From positions 1 to 24,064 of the IMG/VR virus record IMGVR_UViG_3300037963_000082: 24,064 nt of DNA, one strand, 5' to 3'. The notes beneath the pieces are model-generated. The model was not told where the DNA came from, made no database searches, and worked only from the letters and a program-made list of their open reading frames with translations. This document shows, one piece after another, positions 3,079 through 24,064 of this stretch; the first letter of the stretch is position 1, and every line of letters starts with the position of its first letter. This DNA comes from a virus. The position numbers and the translations under genes were made by a program.

Positions 3079-4276
3079 ACAGATATTAGGTTTCTGTCTC
3101 AATGCCGACTTCTTTGGTCGGGTAAAGAACATCATTGACAGGTCTATGTTTGACAGAGAGATGCGTGACATATTTGACACGTTGACATTCTCTCACACAA
3201 AGTATGCAAAGGACTTAACAAAGTCAGAGCTTAGTAGTTTGTTTAATGATCGCAACCCTGCTATGCCAGAAGCAACCCGTAACAAGGTGCATGAAACAAT
3301 AGCCAGTCTGGATGTTGGTAATGCTGACAACTTCGAGTTACATCTTGATCTTGTGCATAACTTCTGGCTGCGTGATCGCGCTCGTCTGATTGGTGAAAAG
3401 GCAATTGACATCTTTACGGGTGACAGTGAGGAGTTTGGTGAGTTACGCAGACTGATTGACACAGTAGAGGATGGACGCATCAGTGACAAGACTACCTACA
3501 CTAAGGTAGAAGATGACTTGGAGTCCCTGTTAGACAACGAGGCTGGTGATCCCGACTTCCCTTTTGACTATGACCTGATTGCGGAGAACGTGTCAGGTCT
3601 GGACAGGGGTAACTTAGGTATATTGTTTGCAAGACCAGAATCCGGTAAGACAACCTTTTGTTGTTTTCTTGCAGCATCTTACATCAAACAAGGTTTTAAA
3701 GTTGTGTATTGGGCAAACGAAGAACCCGCACCAAAGATTAAGCTTCGTTTGATACAGTCTTATTTTGGCCTAACACGTCAAGAGATGGAGCGTGACCGTG
3801 TTGCTTTATGTGCAAAATATGCAGATGAAATTGAACCTTTGCTCACAATTATGGACTCTGTTGGTACCTCTGTCGAGGAGGTAGATGAATACGCTAAGCT
3901 AAACAAACCGGATATTATGTTCTGTGATCAGCTTGACAAGTTTCGTATATCCGGTGAGTTTAATCGTGGTGATGAGCGTTTGAAAGAAACCTATGTATAT
4001 GCTCGTGAGATAGCAAAACGAAACAAAGTGTTAGTATGGGCTGTCAGTCAGGCAAACTATGAGGCACACGATAGACAATGGATTGATTACTCAATGATGG
4101 ACAACTCACGTACTGGTAAGGCTGGCGAGGCTGACATCATTATTGGTATAGGTAAAACAGGCTCAAGTGAAACAGAGAACACTGTGCGTCATATTTGTAT
4201 ATCCAAAAACAAACTTAACGGGTATCATGGTATGATACATGGACAGATTGATATTGAACGTGGAGTGTACTATTGA
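3047..4276 (+). CDS. replicative DnaB-type helicase
   Basis: Hexameric 5'-3' helicase that unwinds the fork and recruits primase. Residues 1 to about 150 form a helical N-terminal domain. A RecA-like ATPase core follows, with Walker A ARPESGKTT (195-203, K201), an acidic catalytic segment NEEP near 224-227, Walker B IMFCDQLDK (D294) and a sensor SQAN at 334-337. The 409-aa size is like DnaB-type phage helicases. The start at 3047 has AAGGA eight bases upstream and lies inside the primase gene. Its stop touches the HNH gene start (TGATG). Confidence 0.9.
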   Translation: MTTYETTSIDKQILGFCLNADFFGRVKNIIDRSMFDREMRDIFDTLTFSHTKYAKDLTKSELSSLFNDRNPAMPEATRNKVHETIASLDVGNADNFELHLDLVHNFWLRDRARLIGEKAIDIFTGDSEEFGELRRLIDTVEDGRISDKTTYTKVEDDLESLLDNEAGDPDFPFDYDLIAENVSGLDRGNLGILFARPESGKTTFCCFLAASYIKQGFKVVYWANEEPAPKIKLRLIQSYFGLTRQEMERDRVALCAKYADEIEPLLTIMDSVGTSVEEVDEYAKLNKPDIMFCDQLDKFRISGEFNRGDERLKETYVYAREIAKRNKVLVWAVSQANYEAHDRQWIDYSMMDNSRTGKAGEADIIIGIGKTGSSETENTVRHICISKNKLNGYHGMIHGQIDIERGVYY

Positions 4277-4644
4277 TGGCAAAGCACGGTGATGTCAGAG
4301 AGGATGGGATGGTCTTCTGGGGCATGTCTGGTAAGCATGAAGACTGGAGAAGCCCAGATAAATTCTATGCCGCCAAAAAAAGAAACCATGATCATAAAAC
4401 ACGTTTGAAAAAAATACGACGACGATGGCTCAACATGTACAAGGTGCGTAAGGGGTGTAGTCTATGTGGTTACAGCGAAAACTCTGCCGCTCTTCAGTTT
4501 GATCACCTAGACCCATCTACTAAAGTTCGTGACGTATCTAATATGATAACTTTGAAATTGAAACGTTTGATGGATGAGGTTAGAAAGTGTAGGGTTCTTT
4601 GTGCAAACTGTCACATGATACACACGTTTGGAGAGGACAAATGA
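4276..4644 (+). CDS. HNH endonuclease
   Basis: A 122-residue zinc-type HNH nuclease. C61-x2-C64 and C109-x2-C112 form the zinc site. The HNH core is D76-H77 (QFDHLD), N111 and H113/H116 (CANCHMIHT). The N-terminal 55 residues are very basic and suited to DNA binding. Such genes in phage replication modules are often free-standing homing endonucleases; nicking in recombination is another possibility. TTG at 4273 is in frame, but ATG 4276 is preferred and overlaps the helicase stop by one base. The end overlaps the exonuclease start as ATGA, so it is well integrated in the operon and not a fresh insertion. Confidence 0.85.
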   Translation: MAKHGDVREDGMVFWGMSGKHEDWRSPDKFYAAKKRNHDHKTRLKKIRRRWLNMYKVRKGCSLCGYSENSAALQFDHLDPSTKVRDVSNMITLKLKRLMDEVRKCRVLCANCHMIHTFGEDK

Positions 4645-5225
4645 ACGTACTGACCTTCGATGTGGAAACAACCCACATACAGAAAGAAACGGGTGGGACA
4701 ACAGCACTGCCATACTTTGGCAATCGTCTTGTATCTATTGGGTACAAGCGTTTGTTATCCCCTCACGTACACTATCACTGCTACTATCATGCAGACAGGC
4801 AACCCCACGACTTTGCACCTGAGTTGTTTCAGGAAGCCCTTGACGAGGCTGACATGATTGTGGGACATAACATCAAGTTTGATCTATCGTGGATAAGAGA
4901 ATGTGGTTTCGTTTTTGATGGAGAAGTGTATGATACAATGGTTGCGGAATATGTTTTGGCAAAGGCCCAGCGTTGGCCTCTTGGACTTGCTGCTGTTGCA
5001 GAAAAGTATGACGTTACCCAAAAGGAGAAAGACCTTGTGGCACCGTATCTTAAAGAGGGCAAGACCTTCTACGACATACCGTGGGAGATAGTAGAGGAGT
5101 ACGGTAAGGCTGACGTACTTGCTACAGAAGAAATAGCACTAAAACAGCTTGATGCCTTTGGCACTACATTTGAGGAATTATACAATGCAACGGACTTTAC
5201 TACCGACACTACGGCTGTCGCTTGA
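4641..5225 (+). CDS. DnaQ-type 3'-5' proofreading exonuclease
   Basis: This is the proofreading domain normally fused to phage family A polymerases, here a separate 194-residue gene. ExoI is FDVETT (D7, E9), ExoII is GHNIKFD (N77, D81) and ExoIII is EYGKAD (Y154, D158), so all four metal-binding acids are present. ATG 4641 overlaps the HNH stop and follows GAGAGGA. The 3' end overlaps the polymerase gene by 41 bp in another frame, and the last 15 or so residues are not domain-like. It presumably assembles with the polymerase encoded next. Confidence 0.87.
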   Translation: MNVLTFDVETTHIQKETGGTTALPYFGNRLVSIGYKRLLSPHVHYHCYYHADRQPHDFAPELFQEALDEADMIVGHNIKFDLSWIRECGFVFDGEVYDTMVAEYVLAKAQRWPLGLAAVAEKYDVTQKEKDLVAPYLKEGKTFYDIPWEIVEEYGKADVLATEEIALKQLDAFGTTFEELYNATDFTTDTTAVA

Positions 5226-6726
5226 AATGACAGAGACGCTCACGGAGATAGAGCGTAACGGTTTAAAAATAAACCTAGATACACTAAAACAAATTGAGAC
5301 AGAGTTTCAAACAGAACTGGATGAACTAGAGATACGTCTGAATGAAATGGCGCGGGAAGCAATGGGGGATACTCCCATCAATCTTGCCAGCCCAGATGAC
5401 CGTAGTATTCTCCTTTACTCCCGTAAGGTGAAGGACAAGAAAGAATGGTCACGCATGTTCAATCTGGGTCACGAGATGCGTGGTGCCACCATGAAACCAA
5501 AGCAGCGTGTGCGGATGAAAAGAAGCGTGTTTGCTTCCACAGTTCGCCGCATGACTGATGTAGTTAAAAAGACTGTTGGTAGTAGATGTGCAGGATGTCT
5601 TGGTCATGGTAGAGTTCGCCCTGTAAATAAGAATGGACAACCAAGTAAAGTTTTACGTGTTTGTAAATTTTGTAAAGGTGTTGGTGTAATCTACACACCC
5701 ACACGAGAGGTTGCCGGATTCAAACTGGTGCCTCGTGACACGTTTGATACTGCCGCTGCTGGATTTAAGACTGATAAAACTACGTTAGAAGATAGGTCAA
5801 TAGAACTATCCGGGCAAGCAAAGGAGTTTGCCACCGCATACATACGTTACAATGCCTTACGTACTTACCTAAATACTTTTGTAGAGGGAATGAAAAACAA
5901 TGTTGATGCAAATGGTATCATCCATCCAGAGTTTATGCAGTGTGTTACAGCGACGGGTCGCCTTTCGAGCCGCAATCCTAACTTTCAGAATATGCCACGA
6001 GGTAATACCTTTGCAATACGAAAGGTTGTTGAGAGTCGGTTCGATGGTGGCTACATACTTGAAGGGGATTATTCGCAATTAGAATTTAGGGTAGCTGGTT
6101 TCCTTGCAAAGGATAGTCAAGCATACATAGACGTAAAGGATGGCACAGATGTTCACCAATATACTGCAGATATTATCGGATGCAGCCGACAAGAAGCAAA
6201 GGCACATACCTTCAAGCCTCTATACGGCGGCACCACCGGAACAGAAGCCCAACAACGCTACTACAGAGCCTTTAAGGAAAAGTATGAAGGGGTATCCATC
6301 TGGCACGACAAACTCCAGCGAGAAGCCGTTAAAACGAAGCAGATCACCCTTCCAAGTGGTAGGCAGTATGCTTTTCCCTCTGCGCGGTGGACAGAGTGGG
6401 GTACAGCCACAAACCGCACGGCGATATGTAATTACCCTGTTCAGGGTTTTGCTACTGCTGACCTTCTTCCTACTGCTCTTGTTCGTTTGAGCAAGATGAT
6501 GAGAGTAAGAAAATTAAATTCTGTTATTTGCAATACTGTACACGATTCAATAGTGTTGGATGTACACCCTGATGAAAAAGACGTTTGTATCAAGCTGTTA
6601 GAATACGCAATGTTATCATTACCTACAGAGAGCGTGAACCGATATGGAATTGAATATGACATGCCTGTCGGAATAGAATTAAAGATAGGAAAGAATTGGC
6701 TTGACACTGAGGTCGTTAATCTGTAA
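5185..6726 (+). CDS. family A DNA polymerase with DnaJ-like zinc insertion
   Basis: Replicative polymerase of 513 aa lacking its own exonuclease domain. The N-terminal helices cover about residues 1-120. A DnaJ-type double motif follows, C135-x2-C138-x-G-x-G and C160-x2-C163-x-G-x-G. Then come the thumb and palm with motif A GDYSQLEFRV (D295), motif B Rx3Kx7YG (R335, K339, Y347) and motif C VHDSIVL (H453, D454). All catalytic residues are intact. The frame is open from 5149, but ATG 5185 has AGGA eight bases before it and starts at the expected helix, so I choose it. The zinc insertion is the known mark of HMO-2011-type phages. Confidence 0.9.
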   Translation: MQRTLLPTLRLSLEMTETLTEIERNGLKINLDTLKQIETEFQTELDELEIRLNEMAREAMGDTPINLASPDDRSILLYSRKVKDKKEWSRMFNLGHEMRGATMKPKQRVRMKRSVFASTVRRMTDVVKKTVGSRCAGCLGHGRVRPVNKNGQPSKVLRVCKFCKGVGVIYTPTREVAGFKLVPRDTFDTAAAGFKTDKTTLEDRSIELSGQAKEFATAYIRYNALRTYLNTFVEGMKNNVDANGIIHPEFMQCVTATGRLSSRNPNFQNMPRGNTFAIRKVVESRFDGGYILEGDYSQLEFRVAGFLAKDSQAYIDVKDGTDVHQYTADIIGCSRQEAKAHTFKPLYGGTTGTEAQQRYYRAFKEKYEGVSIWHDKLQREAVKTKQITLPSGRQYAFPSARWTEWGTATNRTAICNYPVQGFATADLLPTALVRLSKMMRVRKLNSVICNTVHDSIVLDVHPDEKDVCIKLLEYAMLSLPTESVNRYGIEYDMPVGIELKIGKNWLDTEVVNL

Positions 6727-6766: not shown

Positions 6767-7627
6767 ATGGAAACAGGAACAGAAGTAATGGAAATTGATA
6801 ATATCGATGCAATTGTTGCAGCATTCAACGATGATAACGCTGAGGCACTAATGGAAGCAAGCGGTCAGGGCGGTAATAATAATCGTCAAGTCGGTTTGCC
6901 TCGCATAAATATAAATTACGATGCAGAGACAGAGGATGGTATACCTCTAACTCGTGGCACGTGGAAGATGTATTTGGATGGTAGGTTTGTTTACGCCGAT
7001 AAGGTAAACATCCGTCCCATTTTGCGTACCTTTGAGTACAGCGTTTGGGATCAGGAGAGTGGCACATTCTCTTCTAAGTCAGTGCAAAAGACAAGCCTGT
7101 CTGGTATGTTTCCAGACACGACTGGCGGTAACAAATGTGGTAGACTTACACGAGATGAAGAGGATCGTTTGTCAAAGGATGATCTAGCGTATCTACATTC
7201 CCGTTCAGTCGTATGTAATCAAGTTATCTACGCTAAGATAAGCGGCAGTTTTACCACTGCTGAAGGCACTGCCGTAGATGTTGTAGATCAACCAGTGGTT
7301 GCATATTTCAAACGATCTGGATTCAAACCCATCTCTGACTTTATTGACAGCTTGTCCAAGCAGAAGAAGCTGATGCAGAAGTGCATTGTTTCTTTGACTA
7401 CTCACAAGCACAAAAAGGGTAGTGTAACTTATTGGACTCCAGTCCCCGCCCTTGTGGGCGAAGCAGACATAACAGATGAGGATAAGCAACTCATGTCTAT
7501 GTTTGCTGAAACTGTAAAGGGTCATAACGATAATGTTATGAATCAACACCGTGAAGCGGCAAAGCTCGTTGCTGACGATGACGACATCGATTTGGCTTCG
7601 GACTTTGAAAATGCTAACGCTGCTTAA
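6767..7627 (+). CDS. probable single-stranded DNA-binding protein
   Basis: A 286-residue protein I assign by context and composition, not by a firm motif. It lies between polymerase and nuclease genes, has its own promoter and good ribosome site (AAGGAG, 6750-6755), and contains a beta-rich body (about 45-245). It ends in an acidic tail (VADDDDIDLASDF, then ENANAA), like the C-terminal tails of T7 gp2.5 and bacterial SSB that contact partner proteins. The first 40 residues are also acidic and Gly/Asn-rich. An alternative start is ATG 6788, with AGGA nine bases upstream. It could instead be another abundant replication factor. Confidence 0.55.
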   Translation: METGTEVMEIDNIDAIVAAFNDDNAEALMEASGQGGNNNRQVGLPRININYDAETEDGIPLTRGTWKMYLDGRFVYADKVNIRPILRTFEYSVWDQESGTFSSKSVQKTSLSGMFPDTTGGNKCGRLTRDEEDRLSKDDLAYLHSRSVVCNQVIYAKISGSFTTAEGTAVDVVDQPVVAYFKRSGFKPISDFIDSLSKQKKLMQKCIVSLTTHKHKKGSVTYWTPVPALVGEADITDEDKQLMSMFAETVKGHNDNVMNQHREAAKLVADDDDIDLASDFENANAA

Positions 7628-12624: not shown

Positions 12625-12968
12625 CGTTTCTTTTTCATCTTAGCCCCAGCGATTCTGTCTGCTTGGGTTGGTTTAGGATTTTTGTCTATCCCCGCTTTCA
12701 CACTTAACATACCAAACGCAGAACCACCATTTGCCATACGCAACTTAGGAGTCTGCATCATCTGAGTCTGCATCTGATTCATGTCACGCCCTGTCATGGT
12801 GTTGTTTTGCATCATGTTCTGTTGTGGCTGACTTGCTGACATCATACCACCCCCGTAAGCTTTCTTGCGGGGTTTTTTCTTTGCTACGCCGCCATACATC
12901 ATGGGCTTACGTTGTGGCATACCGCCATACATCATTCCCTTACGAGGGCCGTTGTTGTAGGTCTTCAT
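12621..12968 (-). CDS. Lys/Met/Gly-rich YGG-repeat protein (115 aa)
   Basis: A low-complexity basic protein. The first half repeats a unit like MMYGG followed by a Lys/Arg/Pro cluster (GMMYGGMPQRKP, MMYGGVAKKKPRKK, AYGGGMM). A Gln/Met/Asn-rich stretch follows (about 45-75) and the protein ends in AGAKMKKKR. It has no hydrophobic core and is probably disordered and DNA- or membrane-binding. It is the last gene of the virion operon, overlapping the 1606-aa gene by one base (TAATG), with GAGGA upstream. I recall similar YGG/KKK proteins in marine phages, of unknown function. Packaging in the virion with the ejection proteins is a reasonable guess. Confidence 0.7.
   Translation of the reverse strand: MKTYNNGPRKGMMYGGMPQRKPMMYGGVAKKKPRKKAYGGGMMSASQPQQNMMQNNTMTGRDMNQMQTQMMQTPKLRMANGGSAFGMLSVKAGIDKNPKPTQADRIAGAKMKKKR
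12851..12878 (+). terminator. Rho-independent terminator of the plus-strand replication operon
   Basis: CCCCGTAAG (12851-12859), loop CTTT, CTTGCGGGG (12864-12872), then TTTTTT. The stem has nine pairs including one U-G, with a four-base loop. It faces the plus strand and lies about 230 bases past the last plus gene, inside the opposing YGG gene. On the minus strand the hairpin is preceded, not followed, by a run of A, so it should not stop the virion transcript. Confidence 0.75.
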
Positions 12969-15900
12969 TAGTCTCTGTCCTCACTCATATCAAGTTGCAT
13001 TTCTTCTAGGGCTACTCTACCCGCTTCTCCCAACGCTCCCAGTTCTGATATTAGGAAATCTTGAACTAGATTGTCAAAGGTATCTAAGTCTGCTTTCGTC
13101 ATTTTCTTAGGAAACTTTATCATTTGTAGCATTAAGTCTGCAGCTTCTTTGTTTCCTGCTGCTAGTTTCATCAAATCCAATCCTGCTTGTTGTGCTAAAG
13201 AAACACCAAATTCAGCAGCGACATACTGTGGGCTAACCATACCACGAGCAAGGTTGAATGAACGAGCTATAAGTTGATTCGTACCCATAGCGTTAACTAT
13301 GTTGTCAATCTTTACGGTGGTGTCCAAAGCTCCTACAGCTTCAATTGCTTTTTGATCAGACAAGTAGTCAGTTATATTTACAAGAAAGTCTATGTGTTCA
13401 TCATCTAAGTATAAAGACATCACATCTCTAACTCTATCTGAATCTAACGCACCCGATATATTTTCAGGGTTTCTAAGCACTTTCTTTGTATACTCTTTAC
13501 CATTAGCAGCTATGAATTTTCTACCCTCTACGTACTGTAATCCCCCGTGATTCAACAGTCCGTTTACGATTTGATTTCTCATGCCTGTGTCAAAGACTTC
13601 TTCCGTATCAAAAGTTTGACCACCGACTGTGAATTTGTTTCCTAACTTAGCTACAACAGTCTGTCTCAATTCTTCTATGTCTTGTCTGTTTCCTGATAAG
13701 ACAACATCTTCAAAGAACCTGTCTACATTCTTAACACCTAACGCATCGTTCACCATGTCTTGTGCGGCTGTTCGTATTTGTGAGTCAGAATCAAGTTTTC
13801 TAGCTAAAGTTTCAATACCATCTGATATTCTCTTTTGATACTTCTGCATACCTGAAGCTAATTCGTTACTGTTCTGTATTAACTTCTCAATGCCTCTTTC
13901 TTGCTCTATCATTATATCAAAGTCTATTAGTTTAATTTTTCTAAATGCTACTTTTCCTGTTTCATCAACACTCTTGACCGTCACAGTCATAAGGTCTTGG
14001 AGTTCAGATACGTTTTCAATTTTAGAAAAATCGTAACCACCACCCTGAATTGCTTTCAAATCTAAATCGGCACGTTCGCCAAGTTGTTTAGCCAACTGTT
14101 TACCCCACTTGGCATATACTACTTCTGTCAAAGTGCTGCGTATTAAATTAAAGTGTGTAAGAGATTGTTCGTTAGTGAGGTCAAATACTCCACCCTCTGG
14201 TATGTCACTAAGCTCTCTTATTAATTTATCACGTTGTAGTATAATTTTACCAATTGCGTCGTCATCTCCACGTAAAGCTTTGTTCAAGTTATCTGTTATA
14301 GGATCAAACATTTCAAAGGGAGTTTTACCCCTGTAGTTCATTTGAAACAAACCGTCTTTCATAGCTTGAGTTTCAGCAACTTCTTCGCCTACACTTACAT
14401 CGTCAAAAAGAAACGTGTCAGCATTATTAGAGTCAACTTTTGATTGGCTAGTTGCTAAAGGGTGGCCCCTTGACTTATGAACATCAGATAGAGGTCCACC
14501 GCCCCTTATCTTATCGAACCACTCTGCTTGGTATATATTACGAGCTTTCTTCCACTGCTTAGAAAATTCAGGTATGGTGTCATCTATAAGCTTTTCCACC
14601 TTGCCAGAATAGTCTGTATATCTTGCAGCCAAAGCCTCATCTCGTGTTCGTATGCCAAAGTCCCTGAATGCGGAGTACACATCCATAACTTCTCCGGGAG
14701 TTGCAAGGAAGTCTGGTGCTTCACCCTTATCCATGTAGTGGAGCATGATATCTAGGGGTCTGATGTTTTCTCCTAAAAACAAGTCTCCAGCATTTGGATT
14801 TGTATGTAAAGCATATAGCTTATCATAACTAGTTCCTTCTATAGATGCCAACGATCTCTGCGCCATCTTGTTAGCCACAGTGTACATGCGTCGCCCCAGA
14901 GGTCCAGCAAAAAATCTTGATCCTTTTGAGAAGAAGTCTTTTAAATTAGCCCCTTCAGGTGCGAAGCTCATAAGCTCTGTTATCATGCTGTTTATGGGTA
15001 CAGTCTTTCCTATTCTCCTTGCTTCTTTATCAAGCTTTACAAAGGGTGCTTTAGCTTTTTTACGCATACGTTCAAAACGTTGCTCTGTCATCATCTCAAG
15101 ATTTCTAGCTACTTGTTTTAAATGAGATGGTTTATTATTTCTAAGAAGTTCTAGTCCTTCTGCACGAGAAGCCAAAGCTTGCATGTTTTCTAAATATTGT
15201 CTATCGGCTATTTCAAGTAAATCGATGTCACCTGCAGAACCATCAGGTTTTCTTCTTACTTGTAACTCAAGTTCAACTTCTAGCTCATCAAGACTTTGCA
15301 GCACTCTTGGGGGCAACTCTGCGTTTGGATCAATAAGTATTTCCTGCTTGTACGTCCGTATGTCAGCCATAAGCTTTTGACGTTCAGTGCCTAAATCCGA
15401 CATTATCTTGTTGTTTGTTGCCTTTAAAGACTTTACGTAATTTTTAATTTCGGATGTATCATCCAAGTCTGTTCTACCAGATATTAATTCTTCTAGCCGC
15501 ATGATCATACGATCCGTTGCGTAAGTTCTTTCCTGTATTAGATTTTGAGCTTTTAGCTGTTCGTTAATTGTATTTAAACTTCCTGCCTCTCTTGCATCGA
15601 TCTTAAACGTAGCTAACTTTTTTGCTGACTGTAGCCAGCCAATGCCGCTCATTGTTGCTATGTCTTCTTGCAGTATCCTACGAACTTCAGGACGTTGTTC
15701 AGCAGGAAACTCATCAAGTATTTCAGTTAAACGTCGTTGATGCTTTTCCATGCTTGTGACTACTTGATCTATGCCGTCTTCATCCAGTTTGCCAGCAAGC
15801 TTTGCAACAAACCCAAGTGAGCGTCGGGTATCACCATCAAGAGTAATTCCTGTTGCCCTTTCAAAGTTGTTTATACTTCCATCTGTAAGAAATCCTCTAA

Positions 15901-17788
15901 AAGCATCTCTGTTCCCTGTAATTAACGAAAGAGGTATTCCAGCTATACCTTCTATAGCTTCCAGACTTTTACCGTAAACATCTCCCATCTGTTGGTTTAA
16001 CCAAGCCGCACTTTTACCAGCAAACACTGTTGTGGGTTTTCCAATAGCCATGTATGCAATGGCTGCTATTCCCTCTCCAGCAAAACGATCCCCCTGAAAG
16101 AAACTGCCCTCTCCACCTTCAGCGGTCATGCTTCCACCGTAATACATAGCTAAAGACACAGGAAGTGCCTCAACAAAGTTGTCTTTTACATTAGATATAA
16201 ACCTACCTGACAGGTACCTTCGTACCATCATTCCGCGCAATCGCTGTTGTTCTGCTTGAAGCTTTCTGTATTCACTAGACTGCTTGACTACTTTTAACTT
16301 GTCGCCTGTGTTTCCTTTTCTCAAAGAGAATAATTCATCGCTTACTTCTTCCAGTCTGCTAAATATTTTTTCACTGTTTGCGTCTACCCTGTCCATTTCC
16401 ATAGCGTATGCCATGTTATTAAGGTTGACCTTCCTGATCATCTTTCTATTTTCTAAGAACTTAGCTTGAGCCATTATGTTACCGCTCAAATTATTCAATT
16501 CTGCAGCTAAATCTATTTCGGCTTTAGATGCGCCTTTCGCTTTTGCTTTTGTATTGATCTCAAGTATCTTACGACTTGTTTCACTTATGAGTGATTGACC
16601 TCGTGCTTGTTTTGCTTTACCCACTCCCCCCATAGTAAGGACTGCCTCTGCTAATACGGAACCGTATTGTGCTAAAGGAGTGAGTTGATTCACAGACTCG
16701 TTTAACAAAGTTTGAGCCATGTTTTCATCTACAAATACTGTGTCTAGTTCTACGTTTTCACCGCTTGCTGTTTGTGTTTTAGACTTTGTAATTCTTTTAA
16801 AATCTTCTTCAGTTATTTCTCCAGAGTCTACCTGCTGTTGTAGGGTGGATACAATTGAATCGTTTATAACTTCTGATAGTTCGCGTATGCCCGTAGCGTC
16901 CCCTATAAAGCTCTTCCACCATTCTGATGCTCTTGCTCTATCTTGTGCGCTCCCCTCCCACGATTCTACAAAGGGTGCGCTATTATCTGTAAGATTAAAA
17001 AACTTACCTACGTTATACGCTGTAGCTTTTGTCGCTGCTTTTATAGCATCAATGCCGTAGTTAACTGCATAGTCAGGCAGGTAAATCGCAGTTCCTCTAA
17101 GAACTCCTTCCTTGACTCTTTCAACAGTGGTATCCCAAAAACTACCTGTTGACAGTTGCCGTATGATTATATTCTCAACACGTTTTTTATCTTTAGCCTC
17201 TAAGCCAGTGAGTGGTTCAAATGCACCGGAGACAACCCTTGCAATAGCAGCCTTACCCTCAAAGATGTTTTCCTGTATGCTTTTGAGTTTCGCATTTTGT
17301 GTTGCTTCAGGGGTGGGAACAAATGTAAACTCTCCCGGAGCAGTCTCTTGTCCGAAAGCTACTTCAGTGGTGGGTTGATTTGCTATTCTCTCCGAATAAA
17401 AAGTAAAAGCATTGTTTAATCTGTCAGTCGCTTTGGCACGGACTTCATCACTTACCCCTGAATCAGGACTTGATGCAATTACCATATTATTTAACTGATT
17501 AGAATTATATGGCCCAACACCACCAATTCTACCGCTTTGAATTGCGCTAAAAAATTCATCCCTGTTTAAGATAGGAGATTTCTGTGCCTCAATACTTTGT
17601 TCAGCCATTTCTCCTGTTCTAAAAGCTTTCAGGGTGTTATCCTGAATATCACCTGTAACTTTGTATATCTCATCTTCACCAGTGACTTCATCTTTTACGA
17701 TACCGCCGCCAGTTATGACATCCAAAGACTCTGGGATTACCTCTCCGGGATCAGGAAGTACTTGTAAGTTTTGTGCTTCTAGTGCCAT
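12968..17788 (-). CDS. very large probable ejection (internal virion) protein, 1606 aa
   Basis: The largest gene of the window. Size, position in a podovirus virion cassette and composition suggest the counterpart of T7 gp16, which leaves the capsid and helps form the DNA conduit through the cell envelope. I see no lysozyme or transglycosylase motif. Long charged helices and coiled coil lie around residues 755-900. Less polar stretches occur near 380-390 and 535-600 (including AGEGIAAIAYMAIG) and could touch membrane. ATG 17788 overlaps the preceding stop by one base. Sequence similarity to gp16 is not visible by eye, so the role rests on context. Confidence 0.7.
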   Translation of the reverse strand: MALEAQNLQVLPDPGEVIPESLDVITGGGIVKDEVTGEDEIYKVTGDIQDNTLKAFRTGEMAEQSIEAQKSPILNRDEFFSAIQSGRIGGVGPYNSNQLNNMVIASSPDSGVSDEVRAKATDRLNNAFTFYSERIANQPTTEVAFGQETAPGEFTFVPTPEATQNAKLKSIQENIFEGKAAIARVVSGAFEPLTGLEAKDKKRVENIIIRQLSTGSFWDTTVERVKEGVLRGTAIYLPDYAVNYGIDAIKAATKATAYNVGKFFNLTDNSAPFVESWEGSAQDRARASEWWKSFIGDATGIRELSEVINDSIVSTLQQQVDSGEITEEDFKRITKSKTQTASGENVELDTVFVDENMAQTLLNESVNQLTPLAQYGSVLAEAVLTMGGVGKAKQARGQSLISETSRKILEINTKAKAKGASKAEIDLAAELNNLSGNIMAQAKFLENRKMIRKVNLNNMAYAMEMDRVDANSEKIFSRLEEVSDELFSLRKGNTGDKLKVVKQSSEYRKLQAEQQRLRGMMVRRYLSGRFISNVKDNFVEALPVSLAMYYGGSMTAEGGEGSFFQGDRFAGEGIAAIAYMAIGKPTTVFAGKSAAWLNQQMGDVYGKSLEAIEGIAGIPLSLITGNRDAFRGFLTDGSINNFERATGITLDGDTRRSLGFVAKLAGKLDEDGIDQVVTSMEKHQRRLTEILDEFPAEQRPEVRRILQEDIATMSGIGWLQSAKKLATFKIDAREAGSLNTINEQLKAQNLIQERTYATDRMIMRLEELISGRTDLDDTSEIKNYVKSLKATNNKIMSDLGTERQKLMADIRTYKQEILIDPNAELPPRVLQSLDELEVELELQVRRKPDGSAGDIDLLEIADRQYLENMQALASRAEGLELLRNNKPSHLKQVARNLEMMTEQRFERMRKKAKAPFVKLDKEARRIGKTVPINSMITELMSFAPEGANLKDFFSKGSRFFAGPLGRRMYTVANKMAQRSLASIEGTSYDKLYALHTNPNAGDLFLGENIRPLDIMLHYMDKGEAPDFLATPGEVMDVYSAFRDFGIRTRDEALAARYTDYSGKVEKLIDDTIPEFSKQWKKARNIYQAEWFDKIRGGGPLSDVHKSRGHPLATSQSKVDSNNADTFLFDDVSVGEEVAETQAMKDGLFQMNYRGKTPFEMFDPITDNLNKALRGDDDAIGKIILQRDKLIRELSDIPEGGVFDLTNEQSLTHFNLIRSTLTEVVYAKWGKQLAKQLGERADLDLKAIQGGGYDFSKIENVSELQDLMTVTVKSVDETGKVAFRKIKLIDFDIMIEQERGIEKLIQNSNELASGMQKYQKRISDGIETLARKLDSDSQIRTAAQDMVNDALGVKNVDRFFEDVVLSGNRQDIEELRQTVVAKLGNKFTVGGQTFDTEEVFDTGMRNQIVNGLLNHGGLQYVEGRKFIAANGKEYTKKVLRNPENISGALDSDRVRDVMSLYLDDEHIDFLVNITDYLSDQKAIEAVGALDTTVKIDNIVNAMGTNQLIARSFNLARGMVSPQYVAAEFGVSLAQQAGLDLMKLAAGNKEAADLMLQMIKFPKKMTKADLDTFDNLVQDFLISELGALGEAGRVALEEMQLDMSEDRD

Positions 17789-19869
17789 TACGTTCCAACT
17801 TTCGGTGCTTTAGCTTTTTTAATTGACTCAATTAACGCAGGGTCATCAACTGTATTAAAGTCTTTATCCATAACAGAACCGTTGTTATTTATTATATAAT
17901 CGTCTGCGTTAAGAGGTTTGCTTCCGTCACCCCCTGTTTTTGCAGATTGATTCAAAGCATTTGCCCTGTTTCTTACGTAGTCCACTGCAAAAGCCGCATC
18001 AATAATCTTTGCTTCGTTAGCAGTTAGTACAGCGTTGCCCTTACCATACGTTTCAAAGACCTTCAATTTTTGTATGTCCCTGTCTAATTCGTCTATAACA
18101 ACCTGTATTTTTAAAAGAGCTTGTTTCTTAGTGTTAAATCCCGCACCCAACCTGTCAAGCTGTTGTTGAACATCTTGGTTAGACAATCTTCCAGATGGGT
18201 CTGCTGCACGAGCAAGCTGGAAGGCTAGAGATATACGCATGGCTTCTAACTCTGCCAACGCATCACCACCTTCTGATTTCTTGTCCTCAATACCCTTTTC
18301 CAAACTTGCTATAAAATCGTCAGACAAGTCTGCTGTTTGTTCTTCTACGACTCCCAAACCAAGAAGGTCTTTTGAAATTGCTTCTCTGATACTACCCTCT
18401 CCCCCAAACAAAATACCCATTGTCTTTTTGAATTGAGCGTATGCTTCTGGATCGTCAATATCTGCTCTCTTTTGTTGTAACGCTTTCAAGGCAACCATAG
18501 CTGTTTCTTTATTTTTAAGTTCCTTACTCAAAAAGCCCATAGTAAGTTTTTCTGTGGTTCCAGCCAAATTACCGTACCGTTTTCTTAATACATAATTTGC
18601 TCTAGTTAAACCCTTGTCTTGCGTCTGATACCCAAATATTTTTACTTCATTTTTTTCTTTATTAAAAGTCATGTAAGGGGCAATAGCCATGACAAATTGT
18701 GTGAACGTAGTGGCTTTTGTGCTGTTTAACATGTTGTTAAAATCCAATATAGCTTTATCACCTTCTTCATTGTATCCAAGTTTGTACAAACCTATTTCTG
18801 GGTCAAGGGAAGATACTCCCGGATAAGAAGCTAACTGTATACTTGCAGATAGTGCATCTCTTTTTTGAGATGGTTCCATCCCAAGAAAATCAAAGTATTG
18901 TCTGTCGCCACTTAAAGGAATACCATTACCATCTGTTCCTACCCAGTAATTATACAGTGGCAATGCTCCTCCTACTACGGATTTTACAGGTACGCCCAGC
19001 TTCTTTGCTAGTCCCATATAAATAGGCATATCTTCGGGTCTTACCTGCAAACTTCCAACTTGATACCCTACAATTTGTTCTCCATCGTCTCCACCCTTTC
19101 GGGGTTCTATAACTGTGGCTATAGTCAAATCACCAGTATCACTGCCATCGCCACTACCGTCGCTCTGACCCAATTCAGATTTAGCACTGTCCACTGTGTC
19201 TGTTACAGACGGTACGGGTATTCCTAAATCTTTCATTATTTTGTTGTGTATTGCTAAAGCTTGATATGGTGAAGTGGGACTGAGGCCAAATAGTTCTGGA
19301 GTCATATACCCAGATAAGTCACCCTTTCCTGAAGCTAAAATTTTACCCATATCATTATTTATAATTCTCATTCGCATTCCAGACAGCATATTCTGTACAT
19401 TTTGGGCTAACACGGGGTCTTTTCTTAACTTCTCTTGTATTTCAGGACGGGTTATCATGTTAGAGTATTCGTTAAGAAAAGCAAAACTATCATTAGGACT
19501 GCCTTTACCATCCGCAATACTAAATCCTAAGAAACTATTTTTTGTTGATCCCGGTATTTTAAAGTTGTAATCTGTCGCATCACCCAACGCTCCCTGAATA
19601 GATGCCATATCCAAAGCAATATCTCTTCCCCTTTTACCAAAGGGTCCGATAGGTTCCATGCTATCTATCTGTGTATTTGCCTTTTTAACAAGATCCCTTA
19701 CAGCGTTCACTCCAGCTTCCGTCGCATCACCTTTAATCATTGCTTGTATAGCGTAATCCTGATAAGAATTAATACGATCCCTTTGCTTGTCACGACGAGC
19801 CTGTTCTTTGTCTATGTTTTCCGAAAAGCCTTGTACAAGACCTGTAGCAAATGCTGCAGCAATACCCAT
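17788..19869 (-). CDS. probable ejection (internal virion) protein, 693 aa
   Basis: Comparable in size and place to T7 gp15. A small apolar N-terminus (MGIAAAFATGLVQGF) is followed by charged helices. An acidic Gly/Ser/Asp linker lies near residue 240, then a globular middle (about 260-440) and a long helical C-terminal half rich in Lys, Glu, Asp and Ala. The start at 19869 lies two bases after the preceding stop with GAGG nine bases upstream. No enzyme motif is visible. Role inferred from order and composition. Confidence 0.65.
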   Translation of the reverse strand: MGIAAAFATGLVQGFSENIDKEQARRDKQRDRINSYQDYAIQAMIKGDATEAGVNAVRDLVKKANTQIDSMEPIGPFGKRGRDIALDMASIQGALGDATDYNFKIPGSTKNSFLGFSIADGKGSPNDSFAFLNEYSNMITRPEIQEKLRKDPVLAQNVQNMLSGMRMRIINNDMGKILASGKGDLSGYMTPELFGLSPTSPYQALAIHNKIMKDLGIPVPSVTDTVDSAKSELGQSDGSGDGSDTGDLTIATVIEPRKGGDDGEQIVGYQVGSLQVRPEDMPIYMGLAKKLGVPVKSVVGGALPLYNYWVGTDGNGIPLSGDRQYFDFLGMEPSQKRDALSASIQLASYPGVSSLDPEIGLYKLGYNEEGDKAILDFNNMLNSTKATTFTQFVMAIAPYMTFNKEKNEVKIFGYQTQDKGLTRANYVLRKRYGNLAGTTEKLTMGFLSKELKNKETAMVALKALQQKRADIDDPEAYAQFKKTMGILFGGEGSIREAISKDLLGLGVVEEQTADLSDDFIASLEKGIEDKKSEGGDALAELEAMRISLAFQLARAADPSGRLSNQDVQQQLDRLGAGFNTKKQALLKIQVVIDELDRDIQKLKVFETYGKGNAVLTANEAKIIDAAFAVDYVRNRANALNQSAKTGGDGSKPLNADDYIINNNGSVMDKDFNTVDDPALIESIKKAKAPKVGT

Positions 19870-19871
19870 GT

Positions 19872-20435
19872 TTAACTAGCCTCTTCCGTTTGTTTCTTCA
19901 TTGTCATAAAGTTTTCTTCCTCTGGCTCTTGTGGAGCGTACCCTTGACGAAGACCTTCGTTTATCTGCTCACTTACATAAGCAAACATTTTTGGATTGTT
20001 TTGTTTCATCATTCTGAAGAATGTTTCGTCACTCATCTCATTACGTTCTAGTTCATCATCGTTTTCAAAAAAACGGTATGGTATGTTCTCCTTGTCAGCC
20101 ATACCAGCTATAGCGATAGCTAACGGTCCCTTGATTAACAAACCAATATCGGGTGAGAATTTACCGTCAGAGAATCCTTGAAAGATGTAACCCTCGACAA
20201 TAACTTCTACAGATACACCTACTGTAAGAAGTTTAAACATCTCACGTTTTGCTGCTGTTTCAGACACGGCAGCGATTGCTCTGTCTAACACTACACTTGG
20301 GTCAGAGTCTCTTGGCGGTTGTCCCCACGGCCACCGTTGATTGTCTGAAGTTAAACCATATCCCGGTGGTGCCATAGCAAAATCATCTTTTGCCTCAACT
20401 GATCCGACGGGAGCCATGTTTGCATCTAGTTTCAT
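19872..20435 (-). CDS. virion-module protein (187 aa)
   Basis: Unrecognised. The Pro/Gly-rich N-terminus (about 1-45) is followed by a helical region and two apolar segments (LLTVGVSVEVIVEGYIF and LLIKGPLAIAIAGMA). The C-terminus is charged and ends in a Glu-rich tail. Size and place recall T7 gp14 (196 aa, outer-membrane ejection protein), but that is only a comparison. ATG 20435 overlaps the previous stop (ATGA). Possible role in DNA ejection. Confidence 0.55.
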   Translation of the reverse strand: MKLDANMAPVGSVEAKDDFAMAPPGYGLTSDNQRWPWGQPPRDSDPSVVLDRAIAAVSETAAKREMFKLLTVGVSVEVIVEGYIFQGFSDGKFSPDIGLLIKGPLAIAIAGMADKENIPYRFFENDDELERNEMSDETFFRMMKQNNPKMFAYVSEQINEGLRQGYAPQEPEEENFMTMKKQTEEAS

Positions 20436-20884
20436 ACTACATTAATCTCCGATAATTCAGGCCGTTCTGTTACCACTGTTTTCTTTCCTTGAGGAGTAGT
20501 CGGGCGAACATACCCCAAATCGTTCATCATGGATTGTATATTTAAATCTCTGGAACCGTTTTCTCTAAAATGTCTTGCAGCTTCCATAACAGCAGCCTGT
20601 TGAAACAACTGTTGCATAGGGGAACTAAGTCCCCCCGGTGCTGTTTGTCCTCGTGTAAGTTCTTTAATAGTTCGTGGTTGAGGCATTTCTGTAGTGCCAA
20701 AAACTGGTTTACCCTCTCTGGAATCAGAAAGGGCTTTTGCTCCGCTCTTCAAAAAACCAAGAAAACCACCACCTCTGACTGCTTTGTTATATTCAGGGTG
20801 ACCGGGGGGTGGTCCCTCTGGATCACTACCCCCACCTAATAAAAGGGGTAATCCTACAGCCACTATTGTTTTTAAATCAAACAT
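20432..20884 (-). CDS. virion-module protein with apolar N-terminus (150 aa)
   Basis: Starts MFDLKTIVAVGLPLLLGG, a short apolar stretch that could be a membrane-active segment. A Gly/Pro-rich linker follows, then a helical region with SSPMQQLFQQAAVMEAARHF and a basic C-terminus. It has a strong AAGGAAGG ribosome site. No family recognised. Together with the 187-aa protein it lies between the coiled-coil protein and the large ejection proteins, so a small ejection or tail-connector role is plausible. Confidence 0.55.
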   Translation of the reverse strand: MFDLKTIVAVGLPLLLGGGSDPEGPPPGHPEYNKAVRGGGFLGFLKSGAKALSDSREGKPVFGTTEMPQPRTIKELTRGQTAPGGLSSPMQQLFQQAAVMEAARHFRENGSRDLNIQSMMNDLGYVRPTTPQGKKTVVTERPELSEINVV

Positions 20885-20896
20885 CTCGTACCTTCC

Positions 20897-22228
20897 TTAC
20901 TGTGCAATCCACTTAGCAAGCCAATTTCCTACACCTGCAGCAAGATCATCTTTTTGTTTCTTATCGTACAGCTTTTCTGTATTAGCAAATTCCATAGCCA
21001 TAATGCCAACTTCGTGTTGTCGTTGTAATTCAGATTCACCCTTTTGAAAATTCCACGCTGCATTGTCTCTGTACTTTTGCCACAAATTATTCAAAGCGTT
21101 TTGTGTAGCGTTGAATGAGTTTTGCACGTTTATGCGGTTTGATTCGTTCTGTGTTGCAGTGTTTGCAGTGTTGATTTGTCTTCGCCAATTGACGTTTGAT
21201 TGATCAATAGCGTATTGCATGTTGGCGTTAAATTTGTCCCGTGCATCTCTCATGCTGGCGTTGAACTGTGTCATGGCGTTTGTTTCGCCAGCGTTGAACT
21301 GTTCCATAGCAGCGACACGGTTAGCATTAGCTGTTTCAACTTGGGAGCCTAACTCTGCAAAAAACTCTTCAACTTGCAATTCGTTTTTAGCGTTGAATTG
21401 TTTACGGGCGTTATCCTCCGCAGCGTCTTTGAACATTGCCTGTGTTAGTGCGTTGAAACTGAGAGTATTAGCTTGTTGTCGCGCATCAAGGTTCTTTGTT
21501 TCAGTAGCAAGAAGCGACTGAGCGTTAGTCACTGCAGAGGTAAGTCTGGCATTTAAGTTTGCTTTGTCCATTGCAGCGTAAGTCGCAGCGTTAGACAGTG
21601 CCATTTGTTGTTGATTGTTTAAATTTGCAAGCTGTATGGTGGCATACTTCTTTGCATCGTCGGCAGCGATAACTACGCCAGATTCTAACACAGCCTGTGT
21701 CATGGCTGCAGCCGCCATAGAACTTGCACCCAAGCCACGTGCTTGCATTACACCACTTATTTTACGAACAGCCGGAGCAGCCCACGGGGGAAGAGGTTGA
21801 CCTTGTTGAATGCTTTGCATCAACTGACCAAGTTGATATTGAGTAGTGGCCTGTGGATCAAGCGTTTGGGTAGCAGCCGTTCCGATTGCACCTGCAGATG
21901 GACCTGCTTGAACTCCTGTCATGTCAACTTGTACAGGCTGAGTGATTTGGGAAGCAGTCGCGGTACCCACTTGAGGAGTTACCTGCGTTGTGCTTGCTAC
22001 TTGTCCTACTCCAGAAGCGGGTGCAGTAGGAGTGGCAGGGGTTAAGCCTGTTAAATTAGCTGTCGTTGCCGCCGGAGTGGTTGCAGGAGTAGGTATTTGA
22101 GTGCCTGTAGTGCTTTGTAACTCACCTGTTTGTACGGTTTGAAGAACGGGAGTTACAGCCGGGACACCCGCACCTGCAAGTTTTCCTACTTCAGCATCTA
22201 ATTGTGCATCTGTTGTTATCGTTGCCAT
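20897..22228 (-). CDS. coiled-coil virion protein with 11-residue repeats (443 aa)
   Basis: Residues 1 to about 130 are low-complexity Thr/Ala/Pro/Val/Gln. A short apolar-helical part (about 150-200) includes PLPPWAAPAV. Then comes a long helix with no proline. From Q277 on, units of exactly 11 residues can be laid end to end (277, 288, 299, 310, 321, 332, 343 and so on), several opening with [Q/K]FNA: QFNAKNELQVE, QFNAGETNAMT, QFNASMRDARD, KFNANMQYAID. Such hendecads form right-handed or straight coiled coils. ATG 22228 follows AGGAA. It is probably an internal virion or tail protein; family not recognised. Confidence 0.65.
   Translation of the reverse strand: MATITTDAQLDAEVGKLAGAGVPAVTPVLQTVQTGELQSTTGTQIPTPATTPAATTANLTGLTPATPTAPASGVGQVASTTQVTPQVGTATASQITQPVQVDMTGVQAGPSAGAIGTAATQTLDPQATTQYQLGQLMQSIQQGQPLPPWAAPAVRKISGVMQARGLGASSMAAAAMTQAVLESGVVIAADDAKKYATIQLANLNNQQQMALSNAATYAAMDKANLNARLTSAVTNAQSLLATETKNLDARQQANTLSFNALTQAMFKDAAEDNARKQFNAKNELQVEEFFAELGSQVETANANRVAAMEQFNAGETNAMTQFNASMRDARDKFNANMQYAIDQSNVNWRRQINTANTATQNESNRINVQNSFNATQNALNNLWQKYRDNAAWNFQKGESELQRQHEVGIMAMEFANTEKLYDKKQKDDLAAGVGNWLAKWIAQ
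21060..21401 (-). repeat. hendecad (33-bp) repeat tract inside the 443-aa gene
   Basis: The DNA reflects the protein repeat: the plus-strand string GCGTTGAA or a near copy recurs at about 21107, 21224, 21258, 21291, 21391 and 21450. The copies at 21224, 21258 and 21291 are 33-34 bases apart, and the step from 21291 to 21391 is about three such periods. The repeat is diverged at most codons, so it is an old protein repeat and not a recent DNA duplication. Confidence 0.55.
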
Positions 22229-22243
22229 AGCTATTCCTAGTTA

Positions 22244-22272
22244 ATTTTACTGTATTTATAATAAAAAAGCAA
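22244..22272 (-). promoter_or_regulatory. possible internal promoter before the ejection-protein genes
   Basis: On the minus strand, TTGCTT (22272-22267) and TAAAAT (22249-22244) are separated by 17 bases. The -10 box matches five of six consensus positions; the -35 is weak (three of six). It lies in the 49-base AT-rich gap, the widest in the virion operon, 16 bases before the start codon of the 443-aa gene. No terminator stem is visible in the gap. Confidence 0.35.
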
Positions 22273-22277
22273 GTATT

Positions 22278-22841
22278 TTATATTGGATCAGGCCAGTCAT
22301 TGATCGGAGCATTACCAGTTGGCTTGCCATCGCTATCAACAGGCGTGTCGTAGAGTGCCATAAAAGCGGTAAGATCAGCGGCATTAGTTATAGATGTTTC
22401 AATATTATTACTAGCTGTACGAACAGCAGCCCTGTAAGTTGTTATGTTTGACGGAACAGAGTAAGACTCAACTTCTGTTGCTTTGATAACTTGCCAGTCA
22501 TAGGGTGCAAGTAAACCTGCTGCTTGGGTTTTGACTGTCTCAATGGCAACAGTCTTTAGTCCTTTGGTGACAATCTGATTACCGTCAATATCTAGTCTTG
22601 GCTCTCCATCCTCGTCAACCTCATTTATGTCTGTCAGTGAGCGAGGGATTAACTCGCCATCAGCATCACGACCCCAGTAAAAGCGGTTGTCGTGTGCCGC
22701 AACTTCATCTTCCCAAGTAAGACCAATAGCAGCTTTTTCATCTGCGCTAAGGTTGTTCCACACGGCAGGATATTGTGTGCCGTCATTATCGACCCACGCC
22801 TTGCCTACTCGTATGATTCGACCTGAATATTTCCACGGCAT
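22278..22841 (-). CDS. tail-fibre-associated protein, possibly assembly chaperone (187 aa)
   Basis: Begins MPWKYSGRIIRVGKAWVD. The first half is Trp/Asp/Gly-rich. The second half has LLAPYDWQVIKATE, then YRAAVRTASNNIE and a terminal DWPDPI. The pattern of a Trp within LxxTDW-like context followed by a YRxAxR helix resembles phage tail-fibre assembly proteins. I recall close relatives directly after DUF7483 fibre genes in marine phages. It follows the fibre gene by 11 bases with AGGAG upstream. It could be a chaperone or a small fibre component. Confidence 0.6.
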   Translation of the reverse strand: MPWKYSGRIIRVGKAWVDNDGTQYPAVWNNLSADEKAAIGLTWEDEVAAHDNRFYWGRDADGELIPRSLTDINEVDEDGEPRLDIDGNQIVTKGLKTVAIETVKTQAAGLLAPYDWQVIKATEVESYSVPSNITTYRAAVRTASNNIETSITNAADLTAFMALYDTPVDSDGKPTGNAPINDWPDPI

Positions 22842-22852
22842 TTTATATTCTC

Positions 22853-24064
22853 CTATCGGGCATTAGCAAATTTAAAGGGTTGATCGGCAAAGGCGGTGTA
22901 GACATAGGTGTCGCCAGACGCATTTAAACCAGTGCCAGTTTTTCTGGGCTTGAATCCGTTTGATAAAATATCAAGGCCACCGTCTGTGTATTCAGCATTG
23001 TTTTCGTTTGCGAGAAGATACCTACTTACCTCGTTTGATGTATTTCTGGTGCTATCCCACATATGCCAATGACCTGTGTTGTTGACCTTTTTTTGCATAA
23101 TCCAAGCTGGTCTAAACCCTGTGTAAATAAACGGCCCATCTGCATTTCCGTTTCCAACGTAGCTGCCACTTTTAGAAAATCCCTCAACATCAGCAAAAAG
23201 AAAACTTATATGAACTTCATTGCTTGCACTGTTAAGACTAGCAACCCCCACTGTCCAGAGACTAGAAGTTGGTGCAGTGTCATTCCACATAGTATAATCA
23301 GCAACAGCATTATTTCGGCTTAATGCAAGATAGTCTGTTTCAGCATCACTTGCAGCACCTACATGATAAACATAAAACCAGTTATCTTCGTTTGGCTTTG
23401 TCCAAATGGCTGTTGGTACTTTACCCATGCCGTGTGCAATATTTTTAACACTGTTATCCGCTTGCCATGTAGTAAAACTAAACCCTGCTGTAGTATTTAC
23501 AAGACCCGAACTATCTACATTACCAACACCTGTCGCACTCGTATCATTACTAAATGATTCCGTTGCTTTCCAAGCCCACGCAACATAAGTATCGCTGCTG
23601 TTATTGACTGTACCATGATCCGTTAAAGTAATCCCATCTGAGGTAAATGCTGATGTAACACCAGTGAACTCTAACGTGGACTCACTATCAGAGTGTATTC
23701 CTTTATCTGCGCCTCTACCGCCATTGACCAAAATATGATTGTTTACAGCACCTCGTTCTTTCAGCCAAACGAATCCGGGCTGAAAACCAAACCCCTCTAA
23801 ATCTCTGCCAGAGGTGCCATTGCCAGTATAAGTAACCGTGTTAAAATGCTCAGTACCATCAATAATATCGACATCAGGTAAGTTCTGAGAACATAACGCG
23901 AGGAACCCGCTTGGTGGTGCGTACTGAAATGAACCGTGACCTTCTCCATCTGCGTTACTGTTAGCTGTAGCTTTTGCACCAGAAAAAGAACTGTCTTGTC
24001 CAAAATTAATTCTTACATCCCCTGATGTGCCAGTATACACCCCAATAAAAGGGACTACCCCACC
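22853..24064 (-). CDS. DUF7483-type tail fibre protein, C-terminal part (runs off right edge)
   Basis: The frame is open to the window edge (403 residues visible), so the true start lies outside; a GTG at 24040 is not a convincing start. Repeated beta modules each hold a segment like GFQPGFVWLKERG or GFRPAWIMQKK, a variable loop rich in Asp, Asn and Trp, and a closing strand (DTYVAWAWKA, DTYVYTAFADQPFKFANAR). This is the layout I know from DUF7483 tail proteins of marine phages, with PPSGFLALC in the N-terminal visible part. Probably a host-recognition fibre or adhesin. Confidence 0.75.
   Translation of the reverse strand, partial: GGVVPFIGVYTGTSGDVRINFGQDSSFSGAKATANSNADGEGHGSFQYAPPSGFLALCSQNLPDVDIIDGTEHFNTVTYTGNGTSGRDLEGFGFQPGFVWLKERGAVNNHILVNGGRGADKGIHSDSESTLEFTGVTSAFTSDGITLTDHGTVNNSSDTYVAWAWKATESFSNDTSATGVGNVDSSGLVNTTAGFSFTTWQADNSVKNIAHGMGKVPTAIWTKPNEDNWFYVYHVGAASDAETDYLALSRNNAVADYTMWNDTAPTSSLWTVGVASLNSASNEVHISFLFADVEGFSKSGSYVGNGNADGPFIYTGFRPAWIMQKKVNNTGHWHMWDSTRNTSNEVSRYLLANENNAEYTDGGLDILSNGFKPRKTGTGLNASGDTYVYTAFADQPFKFANAR

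Follow-up and report, generated by a model that had tools for sequence, protein, structure and literature searches.

The family A DNA polymerase encoded by the window (the whole virus record analysed here, 24,064 bases) carries a large insert in its thumb, and a hairpin at the tip of this insert bears two DnaJ-like CXXCXGXG motifs around a conserved basic loop. The module is present whether or not the 3′-5′ exonuclease is part of the same polypeptide. We propose, with a probability of roughly 0.45, that this zinc-stapled, basic extension of the thumb grips duplex DNA behind the active site. If so, it would serve a phage group that ranks among the most abundant in the sea, with the exonuclease covalently attached or not; in single ocean virome datasets, HMO-2011-type polymerases account for up to 19.7% of those of family A (PMC9038755). 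Once placed in the thumb, what had been a vague "DnaJ domain" becomes a module whose part in DNA grip or processivity can be tested.

Table 1. Features of the window that are discussed in the text.
Feature	Positions	Strand	Evidence
Separate 3′-5′ exonuclease gene, likely ATG at 4641	4599..5225	+	PF01612, E = 6.4e-10
Polymerase translation start: Shine-Dalgarno GAGGAA, spacer and ATG, within the end of the exonuclease gene	5168..5187	+	Recurs in relatives
Family A DNA polymerase gene, 513 aa	5185..6726	+	PF00476, E = 2.1e-49; start ATG at 5185
Thumb insert, small α/β subdomain with zinc hairpin, residues ~79–190	5419..5754	+	Alignment gap; AlphaFold2
Zinc hairpin C2C-x21-C2C, two CXXCXGXG motifs, residues 135–167	5587..5685	+	Conservation
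Conserved basic hairpin tip, VNKNG region (family consensus IRKxKKDGT)	5617..5643	+	Charge conservation
Conserved downstream gene, acidic C-terminal tail	6767..7627	+	Tail in five genomes

A DnaJ-like zinc hairpin in an HMO-2011-type polymerase

Judged by its sequence, the window polymerase is of the HMO-2011 type and comes from a marine phage. Like the polymerases of Puniceispirillum phage HMO-2011, pelagiphage HTVC033P and the Roseobacter phages CRP-1, CRP-2 and CRP-3, it is a family A enzyme with two CXXCXGXG motifs, and the gene order primase-helicase-polymerase is common to the window and the HMO-2011-type phages. The closest named relatives are HTVC033P (51% identity), CRP-3 (43%) and HMO-2011 (41%). 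In the HMO-2011-type isolates the exonuclease lies in the same polypeptide (678–705 aa), whereas in the clade of the window it has its own gene; we call the window polymerase a variant because the exonuclease domain is absent from its polypeptide. HMO-2011-type capsid, portal and terminase genes were not identified within the 24 kb fragment, and the structural genes of the window have almost no PHROG match. Six genes on the minus strand (12968–22841), one of them encoding 1606 aa, are without any PHROG match, and a recognisable tail fibre or virion protein (22853–24064) adjoins them.

A "partial DnaJ domain" has already been published, in three papers, as a hallmark of HMO-2011-type polymerases, with two CXXCXGXG motifs as the criterion for it (PMC9038755), and the GenBank record of HMO-2011 annotates PF00684 within the polymerase. 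An earlier note, made from the sequence of the window, knew of no demonstrated function for the motif pair. This still holds, although the domain itself was already described; in the sections of the published accounts covered here, function is only hinted at, through the role of DnaJ in phage lambda replication (PMC9038755). New here are the placement in the thumb, which is finer than that published, the conservation counts, the variant with a split exonuclease and the independence of the module from exonuclease fusion.

The motif pair pointed out in the earlier note is real. CAGCLGHG begins at 5587, the first base of Cys135 (polymerase numbered from its ATG), and CKFCKGVG ends at 5685. Of the 270 full-length polymerase frames, which came from fetched loci and named phages and were not selected on cysteines, 269 keep the pattern C2C-x21-C2C, and this rules out a chance motif. 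The lone frame without it is that of Vibrio phage ICP2, which falls outside the HMO-2011-type group.

To call the pair half of a DnaJ central zinc domain, as that note did, was also apt. The Pfam model of the DnaJ central domain matched in the record with E = 1.5e-5 and 20.3 bits, under the curated cut-off of 32.7. The match covers profile positions 15–55 of 65, that is, motifs II and III of four, and an alignment of the insert profile with the cysteine-rich domain of E. coli DnaJ (1EXK) pairs motifs II–III here too. When the insert alone was searched by fold against the whole PDB, nothing was found below E = 0.001. The best matches were the zinc modules of DnaJA2, BSD2 and UvrA, led in Foldseek by DnaJA2 (probability 1.00 but E = 0.31), and VIA gave Z = 2.5 against both 7ZHS and 1EXK. 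A relative is thus suggested for the zinc hairpin only and not for the insert as a whole. The hairpin weakly resembles DnaJ zinc centre II, antiterminator Q, anti-TRAP, BSD2 and the UvrA zinc module. The best match, itself weak, is DnaJ zinc centre II (1EXK; DnaJA2, 7ZHS), in which two CXXCXGXG motifs sit on a zinc-stapled hairpin. Phage antitermination protein Q has the same motif pair (PHROGs 6060 and 127; PDB 4MO1 and 7UBJ), but it is a transcription factor that acts on RNA polymerase and has no polymerase domain of its own.

In contrast to DnaJ, the window polymerase has half the motifs, a basic hairpin tip and a site inside a polymerase thumb, and it has no J domain; a Pfam scan gave only DNA_pol_A and a weak DnaJ_CXXCXGXG match. 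DnaJ/Hsp40 proteins are recognised by four motifs forming two zinc sites, and only two motifs are present here. "DnaJ-like zinc hairpin" is therefore the appropriate name, since two of four motifs are found, the Pfam score lies below the cut-off and a J domain is lacking. The earlier note had also raised a host chaperone as a docking partner; the hairpin would then bring in Hsp70 (DnaK) of the host, a task in which the zinc domain assists DnaJ. The sequence and the predicted fold do resemble DnaJ zinc centre II, and the authors who described the domain themselves brought up DnaJ in lambda replication (PMC9038755). With no J domain detected, two of the four motifs and a basic tip, we find the proposal unsupported and recruitment of DnaK extremely improbable.

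The four cysteines and G140, G142, G151 and G167 are invariant across an alignment of 41 sequences. Among 165 distinct modules, the inner 21 aa have a mean net charge of +5.3 and a minimum of +3, and the consensus of the tip is (R/K)KxKK(D/N)GxP, with Lys at position 15 in 163 modules and Gly17 in all 165. Median dN/dS, computed on the subset of pairs with dS of 0.2 to 1.5, was 0.08 for the insert, 0.21 for the zinc hairpin alone and 0.09 for the palm and fingers; by this measure of sequence change the insert is under purifying selection. These numbers bear on a purely structural role, in which the zinc site would merely hold the enlarged thumb together and contact neither DNA nor protein directly. 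Such a staple would fit the invariance of Cys and Gly amid hairpin positions that mostly vary, and the higher dN/dS of the hairpin than of the rest of the insert. It is nevertheless unlikely, as the tip is conserved beyond what a staple needs, both in Lys15 and in a charge that never falls below +3.

A scan of genome contigs detected the module in close relatives alone, on contigs from metagenomes or single cells that probably belong to phages, and the module was absent from the distant matches L290, L294 and L295. The related, cultured phages MEP401 and MEP402 are without this domain structure (PMC10580990), so the module is not required by every related phage. In the ICP2-like polymerases without the module (L086, 3440–5533; L294/L295), the polymerase domain is interrupted and lies in two open frames; this break does not coincide with the exonuclease split of the window.

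The insert lies in the thumb, apparently in the slot of insertion loop 1 of Pol theta

By sequence alignment, the insert of ~104 aa lies between thumb helix H1 (INLxSPEQLSxxIYS) and helix I (GFxTxKxxLE), that is, in the thumb and not between the exonuclease and polymerase domains. The alignment to the Klenow fragment ends at chain residue 271 (E. coli ~594) and restarts at 304 (~627), with the insert in between, and the corresponding segment of the alignment is short in sister polymerases that lack the module (L290, from a Myxococcota bin, ICP2, L294 and L295). Both the model and the alignments put helix H1 at residues 70–78, ahead of the insert. The AlphaFold2 pLDDT was 88 for the polymerase and 89 for the insert folded alone, in which the hairpin exceeded 90. 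When the whole polymerase was searched by fold against the PDB, only other family A polymerases were among the best matches listed, and the best structural match listed was Pol theta (Z = 33).

The insert appears to occupy the same thumb slot as insertion loop 1 of Pol theta, residues 2288–2317 of the Lates enzyme (PMC9841435). VIA-align pairs Lates residue 2212 with model residue 4, and counting from there puts the start of loop 1 at about model residue 80, the start of the insert; the match is thus one of residue counting through a structural alignment, not of superposed coordinates. Loop 1 is basic and needed for DNA binding: its deletion raised the Kd from 29 to 138 nM and lowered activity, and its conserved lysines and arginines contribute to binding (PMC9841435). 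Basic residues are likewise conserved in the insert family of the window. Unlike the window insert, loop 1 is shorter and disordered, and no zinc has been described in it. Plant organellar polymerases carry lysine-rich thumb insertions that are poised to meet duplex DNA (PMC7699545). We found no family A polymerase with a zinc-bearing thumb insertion in the literature searched. Minnick and colleagues reportedly found that deletion of the thumb tip of Klenow (residues ~590–613) cost DNA affinity and processivity; this deletion covers the insert site.

From the thumb slot, the basic charge and the precedents of Pol theta and the plant enzymes, we infer contact with DNA and favor a grip. A single C4 zinc site would staple the β-hairpin at the tip of the insert, where the zinc would most likely fix the position of the basic loop. 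Behind the active site, the thumb would then bring this loop up against the backbone phosphates of the primer-template duplex, and the contact could raise DNA affinity and processivity, much as loop 1 does in Pol theta. Such a grip would be independent of exonuclease fusion. We count three points against it: the basic surface might just as well take up the acidic tail of a partner protein, as in T7 (PMC7699545); DnaJ-like zinc hairpins elsewhere, such as those of anti-TRAP and DnaJ, often mediate protein contacts; and evolution is faster in the hairpin, taken as a whole, than in the remainder of the insert.

The exonuclease is split from the polymerase in one clade

As the earlier note had concluded, the polymerase of the window has no covalent exonuclease domain; the exonuclease is encoded by a gene of its own in a different frame, and translation of the polymerase has a separate start codon and Shine-Dalgarno sequence. 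The exonuclease frame is +1 relative to that of the polymerase and overlaps the polymerase start, and the same relation holds in close relatives. In all 78 split sequences checked, the core of the Shine-Dalgarno sequence lies 9 nt upstream of the polymerase start, and the homologous start codon in relatives is ATG, TTG or GTG. Because the +1 relation, the Shine-Dalgarno sequence and the start codon recur in relatives, a frameshift or an assembly error is ruled out as the cause of the split, and programmed frameshifting is not needed to explain it. The exonuclease is apparently intact, as judged by an alignment-based check in which the catalytic D, E, D, Y and D were kept in every relative covering them. 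Directly 5′ of the exonuclease gene, the replication module also holds an HNH endonuclease gene (4273–4644).

The exonuclease is separate in the window and 80 relatives, and it is fused in all other lineages seen. The module occurs in 188 fused and 81 split enzymes, equally conserved and with the same spacing. The split polymerases fall into a single clade (SH-aLRT 100) that stands among fused lineages, and they group with the HTVC033P lineage (SH-aLRT 91) in a tree whose root is weak because the outgroups without the module sit on very long branches. This position of the split enzymes is most simply explained if the module is older than the split, and the presence of the module in both kinds of enzyme means that it was most simply not acquired to hold the freed exonuclease. 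Exonuclease docking is thus ruled out as the origin of the module. As a present role of the hairpin, such docking, first suggested in the earlier note, gains from an exonuclease that is truly separate and apparently intact in this clade, but it is very unlikely given the same module in the 188 fused polymerases and the position of the split clade among them. The clade offers a natural experiment that separates the module from proofreading.

We found no mention of the split in the published accounts of HMO-2011-type phages considered here. The published census was limited to sequences of at least 540 aa and at least 80% alignment length (PMC9038755), so the 513-aa polymerases of this clade would, going by these stated thresholds, drop from the published tree. 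One contig, IMGVR_UViG_3300005611_000097 (L037/L296; 35,409 bases), holds two HMO-2011-type polymerases, one of the split type at ~15.9–17.4 kb and a fused one at 3,444–5,501 on the opposite strand; it may be a chimeric assembly.

Possible docking of a processivity partner, and the downstream gene

The main rival to a DNA grip is that the hairpin docks a processivity factor or another replisome partner, for example the acidic tail of the downstream protein or a host protein. A processivity factor was among the partners named in the earlier note. The idea can be kept in altered form, given the site of the insert: in family A polymerases, the thumb is where insertions for processivity and DNA grip are found. 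In the T7 and mitochondrial family A polymerases, thumb insertions serve as binding sites for processivity factors, and the tail of the T7 SSB meets the thioredoxin-binding domain (PMC7699545), itself a thumb insertion of a phage family A polymerase that is tied to processivity. The hairpin of the window is basic, and the product of the next gene has an acidic tail in all five genomes examined. Against docking, no partner was identified, the downstream protein has no recognised fold, and the insert lies in another thumb loop than the T7 domain. The latter binds the thioredoxin of the host, sits between thumb helices H and H1 and is not known to carry zinc, whereas the window insert follows H1. 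On balance we hold partner docking to be possible but doubtful.

Returning to the favored grip on duplex DNA, a stronger form of it is that the zinc-stapled thumb acts as a clamp and gives processivity without an accessory factor, as a metal-based alternative to the thioredoxin-binding domain. We put this forward only tentatively.

The downstream protein had no sequence match in the PDB. Its acidic tail is found in the window, HTVC033P, CRP-3, HMO-2011 and CRP-345, and the protein is a possible ssDNA-binding protein and a candidate partner of the polymerase.
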